Shown one piece after another: positions 17,171 through 52,096 of a stretch of DNA of 64,000 nucleotides. Position numbers and translations under genes: made by a program. Under the pieces are notes generated by a model that had not been told where the DNA came from, ran no database searches, and worked only from the letters and a program-made list of their open reading frames with translations. Source of the DNA: Chloroflexota bacterium (lineage in GTDB: Bacteria > Chloroflexota > Anaerolineae > Anaerolineales > Villigracilaceae); assembly GCA_016235425.1 (NCBI GenBank), contig JACRLC010000037.1:1-64000 (forward strand), read 5' to 3'. The stretch's first letter is position 1, and the number at the start of each line of letters is the position of its first letter.

Positions 17171-17243
17171 AAACTACTCAACTACCAAACTACCCAACTC
17201 TTCAACTACCCAACTTCAAAACGAAACAACCATCAAACCAACG
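17171..17243. repeat. Tandem ACTACCAAACTACCCAACT repeat at the capD-like 3' end
   Basis: Degenerate 7-8 base units of the type ACTACCA/ACTACCC/CAACT run through the gap before the FemAB-like pair. The stop codon of the capD-like gene (17233-17235) lies within the last unit. The same repeat type occurs at 25336-25380 and inside the second glycine aptamer (39771-39850). Confidence 0.7.
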
Positions 17244-25335: not shown

Positions 25336-25380
25336 TTAGTTTTGTAGTTGGGTGGTTTGATAGTTGAGTGGTTGGATGGT
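25336..25380. repeat. TTTGTAGTTGGGTGGTTTGATAG-type tandem repeat
   Basis: Degenerate units of the form GTAGTTGGGTGGTTTGATAG lie upstream of ridA. They are the reverse complement of the ACTACC units at 17171 and match the insert in the glycine riboswitch. Confidence 0.6.
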
Positions 25381-37469: not shown

Positions 37470-37569
37470 CCGGGCAGGCCCGGCGCGGCGGAACCTTTCG
37501 AACCCCGCCAGGGTCGAAAGACAGCAACGGTAAGGAAGTGCATCCGGGTGCCGTCGGTGTCCTGCCTGG
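37470..37569 (+). ncRNA. ffs: Small signal recognition particle RNA (4.5S-like)
   Basis: About 100 nt. The ends CCGGGCAGG (37470-37478) and CCTGCCTGG (37561-37569) pair. The apical domain carries the conserved Ffh-binding internal loops and tetraloop: GCCAGGGTCGAAAGACAGCA with GGTAAGGAAG following, equivalent to the GGUC-GGAA-AGCAGCC region of E. coli 4.5S RNA. With Ffh it targets membrane and secreted proteins to FtsY. A strong promoter lies directly upstream and a T-run (TATTTTTTC) directly downstream. There is no Alu domain, so it is the short bacterial form. Confidence 0.9.
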
Positions 37570-37596
37570 ATATTTTTTCACCACAACCATCCACCC

Positions 37597-39428: not shown

Positions 39429-39437
39429 ATAGATTTG

Positions 39438-39510
39438 CCCTCATCCCCAGCCCTTCCCCCGAAAGGGGAAGGGAGTCCCCTCTCCCTTCGGGAGAGGGTT
39501 AGGGTGAGGG
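39438..39510. repeat. CCCTCTCCC/GGGAGAGGG repeat
   Basis: Nested hairpins CCTTCCCC/GGGGAAGG and CTCTCCC/GGGAGAG within a purine/pyrimidine-skewed run; related to the repeat at 24170-24214. Confidence 0.7.
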
Positions 39511-39521
39511 AAAATCTCTTG

Positions 39522-39550: not shown

Positions 39551-39625
39551 TTTATGAATCAAGGATATTCATCCCTTGACTCTCCTCCCTCTAAACCTTA
39601 GAATTTGTATAACAACTTAACGGAA

Positions 39626-39875
39626 CGCAGGGAAGAGACTCAATTCAACGAGCGCCGAAGGTGCAAATCTGGAACAGGCGAAACCAGATGAAACTCTCAG
39701 GCAAAAGGACCCTGCGACCGCAAAACTCTGGAAAGTCTCATCACGAGACACCGACGGTGTAAATCTCATTAGTTAGGTAGTTTGGATAGTTTGGATAGTT
39801 TGGTAGTTGAAAAACTACGAAACTACACAACTACAAAACCAACCAACTAAAAGATAATCTCTCAGGTTCCATTAC
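39626..39875 (+). promoter_or_regulatory. Tandem glycine riboswitch controlling gcvH-gcvPA-gcvPB
   Basis: Aptamer I (39626-39716) has P1 CGCAGG/CCTGCG and the conserved AGCGCCGAAGGTGCAAATCT and CTCTCAGGCAAAAGGACC. Aptamer II (about 39725-39875) has ACACCGACGGTGTAAATCTC and AATCTCTCAGG. Such RNAs bind glycine and turn on glycine-cleavage genes. In aptamer II the variable stem is replaced by about 80 bases of an ACTACC-type dispersed repeat (39771-39850) that can still fold into a long arm. An intrinsic terminator follows directly, so control is most likely transcriptional: glycine binding should stop terminator formation. Confidence 0.9.
39771..39850. repeat. TAGTTTGGATAGTTTGG repeat within the second glycine aptamer
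   Basis: Three near-identical TAGTTTGGATAGTTTGG-like units are followed by complementary ACTACGAAACTACACAACTA units, giving a long imperfect hairpin around GAAAAAC. It is the same repeat type as 17171-17243 and 25336-25380. Confidence 0.75.
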
Positions 39876-39877
39876 AG

Positions 39878-39912
39878 AGGACGCACGATATTAAAGTCGT
39901 GTGTCCTTTTTT
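39878..39912 (+). terminator. Riboswitch expression-platform terminator
   Basis: AGGACGCACGA pairs fully with TCGTGTGTCCT (one G-T pair) around an 8-base loop and is followed by six T. It overlaps the region just after aptamer II (ACAGAGGACG), so ligand binding can compete with it. Confidence 0.85.
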
Positions 39913-40026: not shown

Positions 40027-40404
40027 ATGAACGCTCCATCCAATCTGAAATACACCAAGTCCGATGAATGGTTCGACCCTGCCTCAGGCGCAATGGGACT
40101 GACCGATTACGCCCAATCCCAGCTCTCCGACATCGTTTTCATCGAATTTCTGGTCGAGGAAGGAGAGACCGTGGAAGCAGGCAAGGCCATCGCTTCCGTT
40201 GAATCCGTGAAAGCCTCCGCCGAGATCTACGCCCCCGCCGCAGGTAAAGTGACCGCCGTCAACAAGGCCCTCTCCGACAAGCCCGAAACCCTCAACAGCG
40301 ACGCGTTCGGCGAAGGCTGGATGGTCAAAGTGGAAGGCGGCGTCGCCGGCGATGTAATGGACGCCGACGCGTACGTGAAGTATTGCGAGGAAAGAGCGCA
40401 CTAA
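40027..40404 (+). CDS. gcvH: Glycine cleavage system H protein
   Basis: 125 residues from the ATG at 40027, after GTAAGGAGAAAACAACCC. The lipoyl-lysine is in ASVESVKASAEIYAP (the Lys of ESVKA, about 59), with the family start KYTKSDEWFDP. The H protein carries the aminomethyl group on lipoate between the P, T and L proteins. It is the first gene after the glycine riboswitch. A short spacer with CCAGT/CAGT repeats separates it from gcvPA. No gcvT lies in the window. Confidence 0.95.
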   Translation: MNAPSNLKYTKSDEWFDPASGAMGLTDYAQSQLSDIVFIEFLVEEGETVEAGKAIASVESVKASAEIYAPAAGKVTAVNKALSDKPETLNSDAFGEGWMVKVEGGVAGDVMDADAYVKYCEERAH

Positions 40405-40482: not shown

Positions 40483-41835
40483 ATGACCTATATCCCAATC
40501 TCCCCCAAAGAACGGGATGCGATGCTTGCAACGGTCGGCGTCAAGTCGCTGGACGACTTGTTCGAGGCTGTCCCGCAAAAACATCGCTTCCCGAAGTTGA
40601 ACCTGCCCCCGGCACTCTCGGAAATGGAAGCCGCCTCCCTGCTCGGGGAAATGGCCTCCAGCAACGAGAACGTGCGCGAGCACGTCATCTCCTTCCTCGG
40701 CGCGGGCGCGTACAATCATTACATCCCCTCCGTCGTGGACCACATCCTGCGCCGCGGCGAATTCTACACGGCCTACACTCCCTACCAACCTGAGATCTCG
40801 CAAGGCACATTGCAGGGCATCTTCGAATATCAATCGCTGATGACCAACCTGACCGGCATGGACGTTTCCAACGCCTCGCATTACGATGGCGCGACCGCCG
40901 CGGCGGAAGCCGTCAACCTGGCGTATGCCCAATTCCGCGGCAAGCGCAAAAAGGTGGTCGTTTCGCCCGGCCTCCATCCGCAGTACCGCGAGGTCATTCG
41001 CACGTACACTCAAGGCATGGGCGTGGAATTGACCGATAAAACGGAAGCAGACCTCGAGGTCGGCCCCGAAGCGTTGATCTCTCAAATTGACGACAACACT
41101 ATGCTCGTCGTCGTCCAGTATCCCGATTTCTTCGGACGCATCTACGATTACACCAAACTCATCGAAGCCGCGCACGCCAAAGGTTCGCTCGTCTGCATCG
41201 TCGCGAATCCCACCGCGCTCGTCATGCTCAAGACGCCCGGCGAAATGGGCGCGGACATCGTCGTGGGCGAAGCGCAGCCGTTCGGAATCCCGCTGTGGTA
41301 TGGCGGCCCGTATCTGGGCTTCTTTACCACCAAGAAATCCTACGTCCACAAAATGGCGGGACGCCTCGTCGGCGAAACAATGGATAACCGCGGCCAGCGC
41401 TCCTACGTGTTGACTTTGACCGCACGCGAACAACACATCAAACGCGAACGCGCCACGTCCAACATCTGCTCGAACCAGGGCCTGCTTGCGCTCGGCGCGG
41501 CGGTGTATATGTCAGTGCTTGGCAAAGGTGGATTGCAGGAAGTGGCGAACCTTTGCTATCAAAAGGCACACTACGCCGCCGAACAAATCAGCAAGATTGA
41601 CGGCTTTGGCCTGTGCTTCGCCGAGCCGTTCTTCCACGAGTTTGCGCTGTGCTGTCCAAAACCCATAGCGGAGATCAACGAACACCTGCTCGAACATGGC
41701 ATCATCGGCGGCTACGACCTCGGCAACGATTATCCCGCGCTAAAAGACCACATGCTGATTGCCGTGACCGAGATGAACAGCAGGGAAGAAATCGATACGT
41801 TTGTGGAAGTTTTGAAGGAGGTGGCAAATGACTAG
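40483..41835 (+). CDS. gcvPA: Glycine dehydrogenase (decarboxylating) subunit 1
   Basis: 450 residues, the N-terminal half of the split P protein. It starts MTYIPISPKERDAMLATVGV and has FLGAGAYNHYIPSVVDHILR, YTPYQPEISQGTLQGIFEYQ and NVSNASHYDGATAAAEA-type sequence (DVSNASHYDG), all family marks. With subunit 2 it decarboxylates glycine and loads the aminomethyl group on GcvH. It overlaps gcvPB by 8 bases (AAATGACTAG), so translation is coupled and the two are made in equal amounts. Confidence 0.95.
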   Translation: MTYIPISPKERDAMLATVGVKSLDDLFEAVPQKHRFPKLNLPPALSEMEAASLLGEMASSNENVREHVISFLGAGAYNHYIPSVVDHILRRGEFYTAYTPYQPEISQGTLQGIFEYQSLMTNLTGMDVSNASHYDGATAAAEAVNLAYAQFRGKRKKVVVSPGLHPQYREVIRTYTQGMGVELTDKTEADLEVGPEALISQIDDNTMLVVVQYPDFFGRIYDYTKLIEAAHAKGSLVCIVANPTALVMLKTPGEMGADIVVGEAQPFGIPLWYGGPYLGFFTTKKSYVHKMAGRLVGETMDNRGQRSYVLTLTAREQHIKRERATSNICSNQGLLALGAAVYMSVLGKGGLQEVANLCYQKAHYAAEQISKIDGFGLCFAEPFFHEFALCCPKPIAEINEHLLEHGIIGGYDLGNDYPALKDHMLIAVTEMNSREEIDTFVEVLKEVAND

Positions 41836-43345
41836 CCCCGCCGCACCCGTTGTCACGACTGCGAAGATCGTCGAGCCGACCATTTTTGAAATCTCATCCC
41901 CCGGCCGACGCGGCGTGAACATGCCCGCTTCCGACGTGCCCGAAACTGCCCTGCCTCCCAAAGATTTACTCCGGTCCGATTTACCCCTGCCCGAACTCGC
42001 CGAAGTGGACGTTGTCCGTCACTACATGCGCCTCAGCAAATTCAACTACAGCGTGGACGACGGCTTTTATCCGCTGGGTTCATGCACGATGAAGTACAAC
42101 CCGAAGATCAACGAAGATACCTGCCGCCTGCCCGGCTTCCTTTACACGCACCCGCTTCAACCCATCGAAACTGTGCAAGGCAACCTCGCGCTGATGTACG
42201 AAACGCAGGAATGGCTCAAAGAAATCAGCGGCTTCGCGGGCATCACCCTGCAGCCCGCGGCGGGCGCACACGGCGAATTCACGGGCGTGCTGATGATGGC
42301 CGCCTATCACAAATCACGCGGCGACACGAAGCGCACCAAAATGCTCATCCCCGACGCCGCGCACGGAACCAACCCCGCCTCGACGGGCATGTTGGGCATG
42401 AGCGTCGTCACCATCCCTTCGGACGCGCGCGGCAACGTGGACCTCAAAGCCCTCGAAGCCGCCTGCGACGATACCGTCGTCGGCATGATGCTCACCAACC
42501 CGAACACGCTCGGCATGTTCGACGAGCACATCGAGCAGGTCATCAAACTCGTCCACGATTGCGGCGGCCTGATGTACGGCGACGGCGCAAACCTGAACGC
42601 GCTGCTCGGCATCCTCCGCCCCGGCGATCTGGGCTTCGACGTGATGCACTTCAACTTACACAAGACGTTCTCCGTTCCGCACGGTGGAGGCGGCCCCGGC
42701 TCCGGCCCCGTTGGAGTGGCGGCGCGTCTCGCGGACTTTTTGCCTGCTCCCGTTGTAGGAATAGTGGAGGAAGCCGAAGATGACCTCCCGCCCCTCTACG
42801 GCTTTATCACACCCAAGCAAAGCATCGGGCGCATGAAAGCCTTCCACGGCCACTTTGGCGGCGGACTCGTCCGCTCGTACACCTACATCGCCATGCACGG
42901 CCCTAACGGTTTGAAGGATATTTCCCAATACGCGGTGCTGAATGCGAACTACCTGCAAGCCCGCCTGCGCGACACGTACCACGTCCCGTATGACCGCATC
43001 TGCATGCACGAGTTCGTGGCCGAGGGACAGTTCGCTGGCTCCGACGTCCGCGCCCTCGACATCGCCAAACGCCTGATGGACTACAACTTCCACCCGCCGA
43101 CAAACTACTTCCCGCTCATCGTCCACGAAGCGCTGATGATCGAGCCGACCGAGACCGAGAACAAGGACACGCTCGATGCCTTCGCCGACGCGCTGATCAA
43201 GATCGCGGACGAGGCGAAGACCAGTCCCGACCTGCTCCACTCCGCCCCGCACATCACCCCGTTTGGGAGGATGGACGAGGTGAAGGCGGCGCGCGAGTTG
43301 GTGTTGTGCTGCTGGCTACCGGAGGATTACAACGAAAACGAGTGA
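41828..43345 (+). CDS. gcvPB: Glycine dehydrogenase (decarboxylating) subunit 2
   Basis: 505 residues, the PLP-bearing half. The PLP lysine is in HFNLHKTFSVPHGGGGPGSG (about 279). Other family marks are FYPLGSCTMKYNPKINEDTC, QPAAGAHGEFTGVL and DAAHGTNPAS. The start is a few bases inside gcvPA. The C-terminal 84 codons (from about 43094) occur again as broken copies at 47754-47831 and 48985-49228. A terminator with GCCTCG/CGAGGC follows the stop. Confidence 0.95.
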   Translation: MTSPAAPVVTTAKIVEPTIFEISSPGRRGVNMPASDVPETALPPKDLLRSDLPLPELAEVDVVRHYMRLSKFNYSVDDGFYPLGSCTMKYNPKINEDTCRLPGFLYTHPLQPIETVQGNLALMYETQEWLKEISGFAGITLQPAAGAHGEFTGVLMMAAYHKSRGDTKRTKMLIPDAAHGTNPASTGMLGMSVVTIPSDARGNVDLKALEAACDDTVVGMMLTNPNTLGMFDEHIEQVIKLVHDCGGLMYGDGANLNALLGILRPGDLGFDVMHFNLHKTFSVPHGGGGPGSGPVGVAARLADFLPAPVVGIVEEAEDDLPPLYGFITPKQSIGRMKAFHGHFGGGLVRSYTYIAMHGPNGLKDISQYAVLNANYLQARLRDTYHVPYDRICMHEFVAEGQFAGSDVRALDIAKRLMDYNFHPPTNYFPLIVHEALMIEPTETENKDTLDAFADALIKIADEAKTSPDLLHSAPHITPFGRMDEVKAARELVLCCWLPEDYNENE

Positions 43346-51763: not shown

Positions 51764-52096
51764 ATGAAACAGCAACAGCAAGAGGAACTTGAGCGACGGA
51801 AAAAAGAGCGGCAGGAACTGGAACAGCAACAGGACCAGAAACGAAAACTGCGGCAACAGGAACAGCAGGAACTGGAGCAGGAGCAGGAACAGAGACGAAA
51901 ACTACAGCAGGAGAATCAACAGGAACTGGATCTGCAACAGGACCAGAAACGAAAACCTCTGCAAGAAGAACAGCAGGAACTGGAACAACAACAGGAGCAA
52001 AAACGAAAGCGGCGGAAACAGGAACAGCAGGAGCTGGAACAGCAACAGGACCAGAAACGAAAAATGCGGCAACAGGAGCCACAGAAGAAGAAATAG
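51764..52096 (+). CDS. Coiled-coil protein made of five 18-residue repeats
   Basis: 110 residues from the ATG at 51764 (AGGAAGGAAAACAAG before it). After MKQQQQEELERRKKER come five exact-length units of 18 residues (51812-52081): QELEQQQDQKRKLRQQEQ, QELEQEQEQRRKLQQENQ, QELDLQQDQKRKPLQEEQ, QELEQQQEQKRKRRKQEQ and QELEQQQDQKRKMRQQEP, then QKKK. Almost only Gln, Glu, Lys, Arg and Leu occur; no Cys, Trp, aromatic or Gly residue appears. It would form a long charged helix. The other two frames on this stretch are also open, so translation is not certain. Confidence 0.55.
   Translation: MKQQQQEELERRKKERQELEQQQDQKRKLRQQEQQELEQEQEQRRKLQQENQQELDLQQDQKRKPLQEEQQELEQQQEQKRKRRKQEQQELEQQQDQKRKMRQQEPQKKK

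Follow-up and report, generated by a model that had tools for sequence, protein, structure and literature searches.

A dispersed octamer repeat of an Anaerolineales family in the variable stem of a tandem glycine riboswitch and in other cis-regulatory RNAs

Palindromic elements of Rickettsia are tolerated inside RNA genes, and STRR sequences have reportedly been found, by Vioque in 1997, within the RNase P RNA of heterocyst-forming cyanobacteria. In the tRNA-Leu(UAA) intron of Nostoc, degenerate heptanucleotide repeats pair into the P6b hairpin, and their copy number varies between relatives (PMC3488679). Riboswitches carry variable insertions, which are described as nonconserved stem-loops that occupy specific sites and leave the core undisturbed (Barrick and Breaker, 2007; PMC2258182). 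We searched the literature available to us on glycine riboswitches (Chloroflexi, P3b), on repeats and variable insertions in riboswitches, and on tandem repeats of Anaerolineae, and found no report of arrays such as those described here.

We analyzed a stretch of 64,000 nucleotides from a Chloroflexota bacterium (contig JACRLC010000037.1 of assembly GCA_016235425.1), hereafter the window, which contains a glycine riboswitch whose second aptamer has an enlarged P3b stem. The likeness to the intron P6b is that a structured RNA has a variable stem built from short, degenerate tandem repeats, with arms that pair into one hairpin. The intron repeats have a period of 7 and another motif and occur in cyanobacteria, whereas the period here is 8-9 rather than the seven bases of the cyanobacterial heptamer repeats, the motif is TAGTY, the hosts are riboswitches and T-boxes, and the lineage is Anaerolineales. 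The cyanobacterial STRR is likewise a short tandem repeat in a functional RNA gene. Its host is a single housekeeping ribozyme, whereas octamer arrays were found in 0 of 36 RNase P RNA loci of the family studied here, and RNase P RNA was rejected as an additional octamer host. The Rickettsia palindromic elements have a fixed sequence and the present array is a degenerate tandem one; common to both is a repeat tolerated within RNA genes. Relative to the riboswitch insertions described as nonconserved, the difference is that the insert here is built from the own genome's dispersed repeat. By analogy, we regard as the nearest precedent the heptamer repeats of cyanobacteria, which occur in P6b of the tRNA-Leu intron and in RNase P RNA. 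The array is thus of a known kind, and differs from the cyanobacterial precedents in period, motif, organism and RNA classes.

Judged from its sequence, the leader is a tandem glycine riboswitch ahead of the glycine cleavage genes gcvH-gcvPA-gcvPB: two aptamers (starting at 39620 and 39718) follow one another, and the three genes lie downstream (Table 1). A first-pass annotation of the window had proposed covariance-model alignment to the glycine riboswitch family as a check on aptamer II, and in RF00504 this aptamer scored 36.9 bits against a cut-off of 32. This match above the cut-off, together with the predicted rho-independent terminator, bears out its statement that the conserved core and the terminator have been kept. 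A plain cmscan against Rfam left aptamer II unreported, probably as a result of the long insert, and the genome-search route recovered it. Aptamer II here serves as an example and a warning that covariance-model scans lose riboswitch members with such arrays.

Table 1. Features of the tandem glycine riboswitch locus and of two dispersed arrays in the window
Feature	Position	Strand	Evidence
Single-armed dispersed octamer array	17172..17215	-	sequence, octamer pattern
Single-armed dispersed octamer array, one mismatch per triple	25337..25377	+	sequence, octamer pattern
Glycine riboswitch aptamer I, ordinary short P3b	39620..39722	+	RF00504, 60 bits
Glycine riboswitch aptamer II, enlarged P3b	39718..39887	+	RF00504, 36.9 bits, gathering score 32
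Outer P3b stem, 5' strand ATCT, pairs with AGAT 39852-39855	39763..39766	+	sequence; cf. ATCTC-GCAA-GAGAT in relative L281
5' arm, TAGTT-type array, period 8-9	39770..39808	+	sequence; TRF 39770-39808, 4.6 copies
3' arm, AACTA-type array, period 8	39813..39849	+	sequence; exact octamer triple, minus strand, 39813-39833
Intrinsic (rho-independent) terminator hairpin and T run, the expression platform	~39879..39912	+	sequence and fold
gcvH, first controlled gene	40027..40404	+	Pfam GCV_H, E 1.2e-30
gcvPA and gcvPB, two glycine cleavage P-protein genes	40483..43345	+	Pfam GDC-P, GcvP2_C

The P3b of aptamer II is about 100 nt long and consists of degenerate octamers, (TAGTY-N3)n in one arm and (N3-RACTA)n in the other, inside the ATCT/AGAT stem. 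About 80 bases had been annotated between the conserved parts of the aptamer; this length is right for the repeat, which is about 80 nt, and not for the full stretch from CACCGACGG to CTCTCAGG, which measures 101 nt. The view that a self-complementary insert extends the stem agrees with the two complementary arms and with the computed fold, in which the P3b insert forms one single hairpin of -28.6 kcal/mol (z -4.3), an energy that none of 200 shuffles reached. The whole stretch 39721-39912, terminator included, folds with z -7.5. Because the repeat has two complementary arms, the helix could be lengthened with core and terminator intact. Two arms predicted to form one hairpin in a variable stem are typical of the array inserts in the parsed leaders, 28 of 29 of which fold with z below -2. 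Within the 5' arm, a perfect duplication of TAGTTTGGA suggests that a unit was duplicated locally. Elsewhere in the window we observed a bacterial small SRP RNA (37472-37570, 63.7 bits) and a tandem repeat with a 54-base period (51811-52077, 4.9 copies).

The octamer unit, TAGTY followed by three variable bases, is degenerate. Allowing at most one mismatch, a triple pattern matched 88 + 80 times (168) across the 5.0 Mb and 109 contigs of the own genome, compared with 1 + 1 (2) for the control, in which the octamer pattern is read backwards; with 2 mismatches the counts were 127 + 124 (251) and 25 + 25 (50). The octamer is thus a dispersed short tandem repeat, with 168 matches against 2 for the matched control. 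With octamer arrays in both arms and the octamer scattered genome-wide, the earlier proposal that the variable stem of aptamer II is made from a dispersed repeat holds. The units had also been said to match repeats at 17171-17243 and 25336-25380, which is true of the octamer class in both places; the literal 17-mer matches neither within 3 mismatches. The arrays at these two places fold no better than shuffles. We discarded the literal 17-mer and took the degenerate octamer as the repeat unit, since a pattern derived from the 17-mer gave 14 + 20 matches against 46 + 45 for the reversed control (2 mismatches). Within the family, 102 of 120 genomes contain at least one octamer match. Among 301 genomes sampled across the phylum, none from outside the family exceeded 7 octamer matches, a level within the control range, and on this sample the octamer is judged to be abundant solely in this Anaerolineales family. 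A search for recent exchange with plasmids gave no match.

RF00504 is present in 105 of the 120 family genomes. From part of these we fetched 98 leaders (genome G089 being counted twice), and 93 of the 99 leaders that include the window's could be parsed into two aptamers; L082, L083, L113, L144, L148 and L157 were left out. In the parsed leaders the core-to-core stretch of aptamer I measures 24-34 nt, and that of aptamer II varies more widely (22-154 nt). A strict rule, under which one arm must hold at least three periodic units, identified octamer arrays in the aptamer II P3b of 29/93 leaders, against 0 expected from composition shuffles (300 per insert), and in aptamer I of 0/93. When counted more loosely (at least five motif units), arrays occur in 35/93 aptamer II inserts. 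Insert length is mostly 88-109 nt among the array-bearing leaders. Dispersed arrays are more numerous in genomes with a P3b array (29 with, 64 without; Mann-Whitney p 4e-10), in a comparison that ignores kinship and counts the P3b array in a genome's own total. Recurrence at P3b among relatives refutes the idea that the window's array is a unique case.

The array is not needed, because 64 of the 93 leaders do without a regular one, and some genomes are rich in arrays yet lack one in P3b by the strict rule, such as G106 (104 matches) and G008 (39). By its own terms, the first-pass annotation would be contradicted if relatives had an equally long but unrelated stem at this place. Such stems exist in part: the aptamer II P3b of the same-genus genome G007 is an unrelated 72-nt stem, and some other relatives have long P3b stems without the octamer; yet the octamer class occupies this place in 29/93 leaders. 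Relative L281 carries a bare ATCTC-GCAA-GAGAT stem at the P3b site, which by its sequence has the appearance of the window's stem minus its array. Other repeats were also observed here. In L098 (G113), L214, L240 and L244 the aptamer II P3b is made of TAGAGAN-type heptamer units and their complement, with no octamers, and among ten genomes searched G113 ranked top for TAGAGAN arrays (30 + 30 matches against 11 + 7 for the reversed control; next highest 14 + 15). The G007 stem (L062) contains GAGCGGAGGGT...ACCCAAAGTCAAAGG, and the stems of L106, L132 and L147 are similar. The sequence CTGAGCGNAGNCGAAG is dispersed, with 30 exact matches each in G000 and G007 (control 0), and has no match above chance in the window; the reading of the G007 stem as a CTGAGCGNAGNCGAAG repeat was dropped as a mere likeness, the stem having just interrupted pieces of it.

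Rfam scans of array loci showed that the own-genome arrays at L188, L171 and L202 lie in a SAM riboswitch, a cobalamin riboswitch and a T-box leader, respectively. Two further T-box leaders with arrays, L200 and L206, fall below the gathering score (E 6.5e-16 and 9.5e-14), which brings the array-carrying T-box leaders of this genome to three. Another array lies in the own SAM riboswitch L408, so two of the three own SAM riboswitches carry one, as does the sole cobalamin riboswitch found in the own genome. The SAM array lies at the apical end of the stem that starts after GGCAACC, and the cobalamin array in the variable stem that is flanked by the CUGUGA and CAAGUCAGG parts. By the strict rule, arrays are present in 14/70 SAM loci, one of the 14 being the own L408; these loci were chosen rather than drawn at random, and comprise 30 best-per-genome loci, none of which has an array, and 40 others taken mainly by length, 14 of which have one, with L188 in addition. 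The same rule found arrays in 7/39 cobalamin loci of other genomes and in 1/30 T-box loci, namely the own-genome one.

The own arrays with an exact triple number 35, of which the window contributed 2 and own-genome loci 33. Six of the 35 fall within cis-regulatory RNAs of Rfam, namely one each of glycine, SAM and cobalamin and three T-box leaders. Expectation for these RNAs is 0.16-0.3, on an intergenic share of 8-15% that was assumed, not measured, and with an RNA base total in which the eighth of the 8 own T-boxes was assumed to be 300 bases, coordinates being listed for 7. Of the 35 arrays, 15 lie within frames that run for at least 120 codons without a stop (some of these frames are open at a locus end), so not all arrays are demonstrably intergenic. 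Cis-regulatory RNAs hold 5/12 two-armed arrays vs 1/23 single-armed ones (Fisher p 0.012), and the array of T-box L202 is single-armed. The arrays are a habit across the family and across several RNA classes, beyond one accident.

Further repeats and arrays were noted during these scans. Two-armed octamer arrays in L190, L191, L198 and L205 lie just before a tRNA gene or near an ATG, some with a ribosome-binding-like sequence, and these loci may be uncharacterised leaders. In the SAM riboswitches L385, L387, L392 and L393 the variable stems are long and contain repetitive units of another, CAGTGAT-like kind, which may represent one more repeat family at the same SAM riboswitch site. In the own RNase P RNA (L421, contig C16, 16700-17400), a variable-stem hairpin is of the type CCCTCACCCC...CCTCTCCC...GGGAGAGGGG...GGGTGAGGG and resembles the hairpin sequence at 39437-39512 of the window, giving a second dispersed-looking repeat within an RNA gene.

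Most of the named loci in a GcvH scan come from Chloroflexota MAGs of the Anaerolineales and of other Anaerolineae; one carries the label Candidatus Villigracilaceae. On a GcvH+GcvPA tree of 72 rows, 62 of them labelled (31 with the array, 31 without), array presence requires at least 15 changes, where shuffled labels require 15-27 (mean 21); the array thus comes and goes readily, although its distribution retains some family signal. L233, with a stretch of 22 nt, clusters with the array-bearing L231 and L238. In alignable pairs of inserts, which overlap and are non-independent, motif positions changed in 276/2726 cases (10%) vs 639/2015 (32%) for spacers, and the mapped base pairs comprise 1142 unchanged, 93 kept through change and 231 broken. 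The difference between motif and spacer fits constraint on the motif; selection for pairing is unproven by it, and homogenisation of the motif could produce it as well.

We consider it likely that a two-armed, family-specific octamer repeat has extended the P3b of aptamer II to about 100 nt, and that variable stems act as tolerant sites where such a repeat leaves the core unbroken. The arms would pair as short helices with small internal loops between them, standing on the ATCT/AGAT stem, and because they stand on this short stem the ligand core, the tertiary contacts and the terminator would be undisturbed. We infer that the riboswitch with the enlarged P3b still works. An array in a leader would persist best atop an existing stem and with two pairing arms, and arrays may settle and persist in variable stems because both arms pair. 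A rather unlikely alternative is that the long stem itself is selected, the octamer helix being a modular RNA domain that evolution has installed in several cis-regulatory RNAs, for instance as a stiff scaffold, as a folding aid, or as a site for a protein or for RNase III. The sharing of one repeat class by four RNA classes, the lower variability of motif positions than of spacers, the enrichment of two-armed arrays in RNAs and the length of array-bearing inserts, mostly 88-109 nt, would suit such selection, which fits poorly with the labile presence on the tree (at least 15 changes among 62 labelled leaders), with near relatives that have 22-nt or unrelated stems, and with single-armed arrays elsewhere in the genome.

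Even less probable, in our estimation, is that the arrays are active mobile elements which prefer the hairpin loops of transcribed RNA genes and move by an RNA- or hairpin-directed mechanism. Such elements could account for arrays enriched in structured RNAs, for an empty site as visible in the plain GCAA-capped stem of L281, and for the finding of both octamer and TAGAGAN heptamer repeats at the P3b site. However, the arms share no more than the motif, many arrays have a single arm and lie outside known RNAs, and tolerance alone explains the enrichment. That P3b is an old variable stem which resembles the dispersed repeats by chance or composition seems very improbable: octamer-free long P3b stems in relatives and the variable insertions known from riboswitches (PMC2258182) speak for it, but it is contradicted by shuffles that give 0 arrays where 29/93 are seen and by 168 octamer matches against 2 for the reversed pattern, and the parallels in SAM, cobalamin and T-box RNAs also argue against it. 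Tolerance of two-armed arrays is the simplest and most likely account of their place in variable stems.

A broader reading, which we hold to be doubtful, is that in this family the octamer, along with other repeats in some relatives, is a common plug-in stem for glycine, SAM, cobalamin and T-box RNAs, which a mechanism with a preference for hairpin loops has spread and which selection on pairing maintains; if true, whole classes of regulatory RNA would be under rebuilding from one repeat. Variable insertions of riboswitches have until now been treated as nonconserved filler, and here their source can be named, namely the own genome's dispersed short tandem repeats. The same tolerant sites are reused by repeats across several RNA classes, and the family offers stems that differ naturally in length and sequence, with which one could test how far RNA sensors can be remodelled away from their core.
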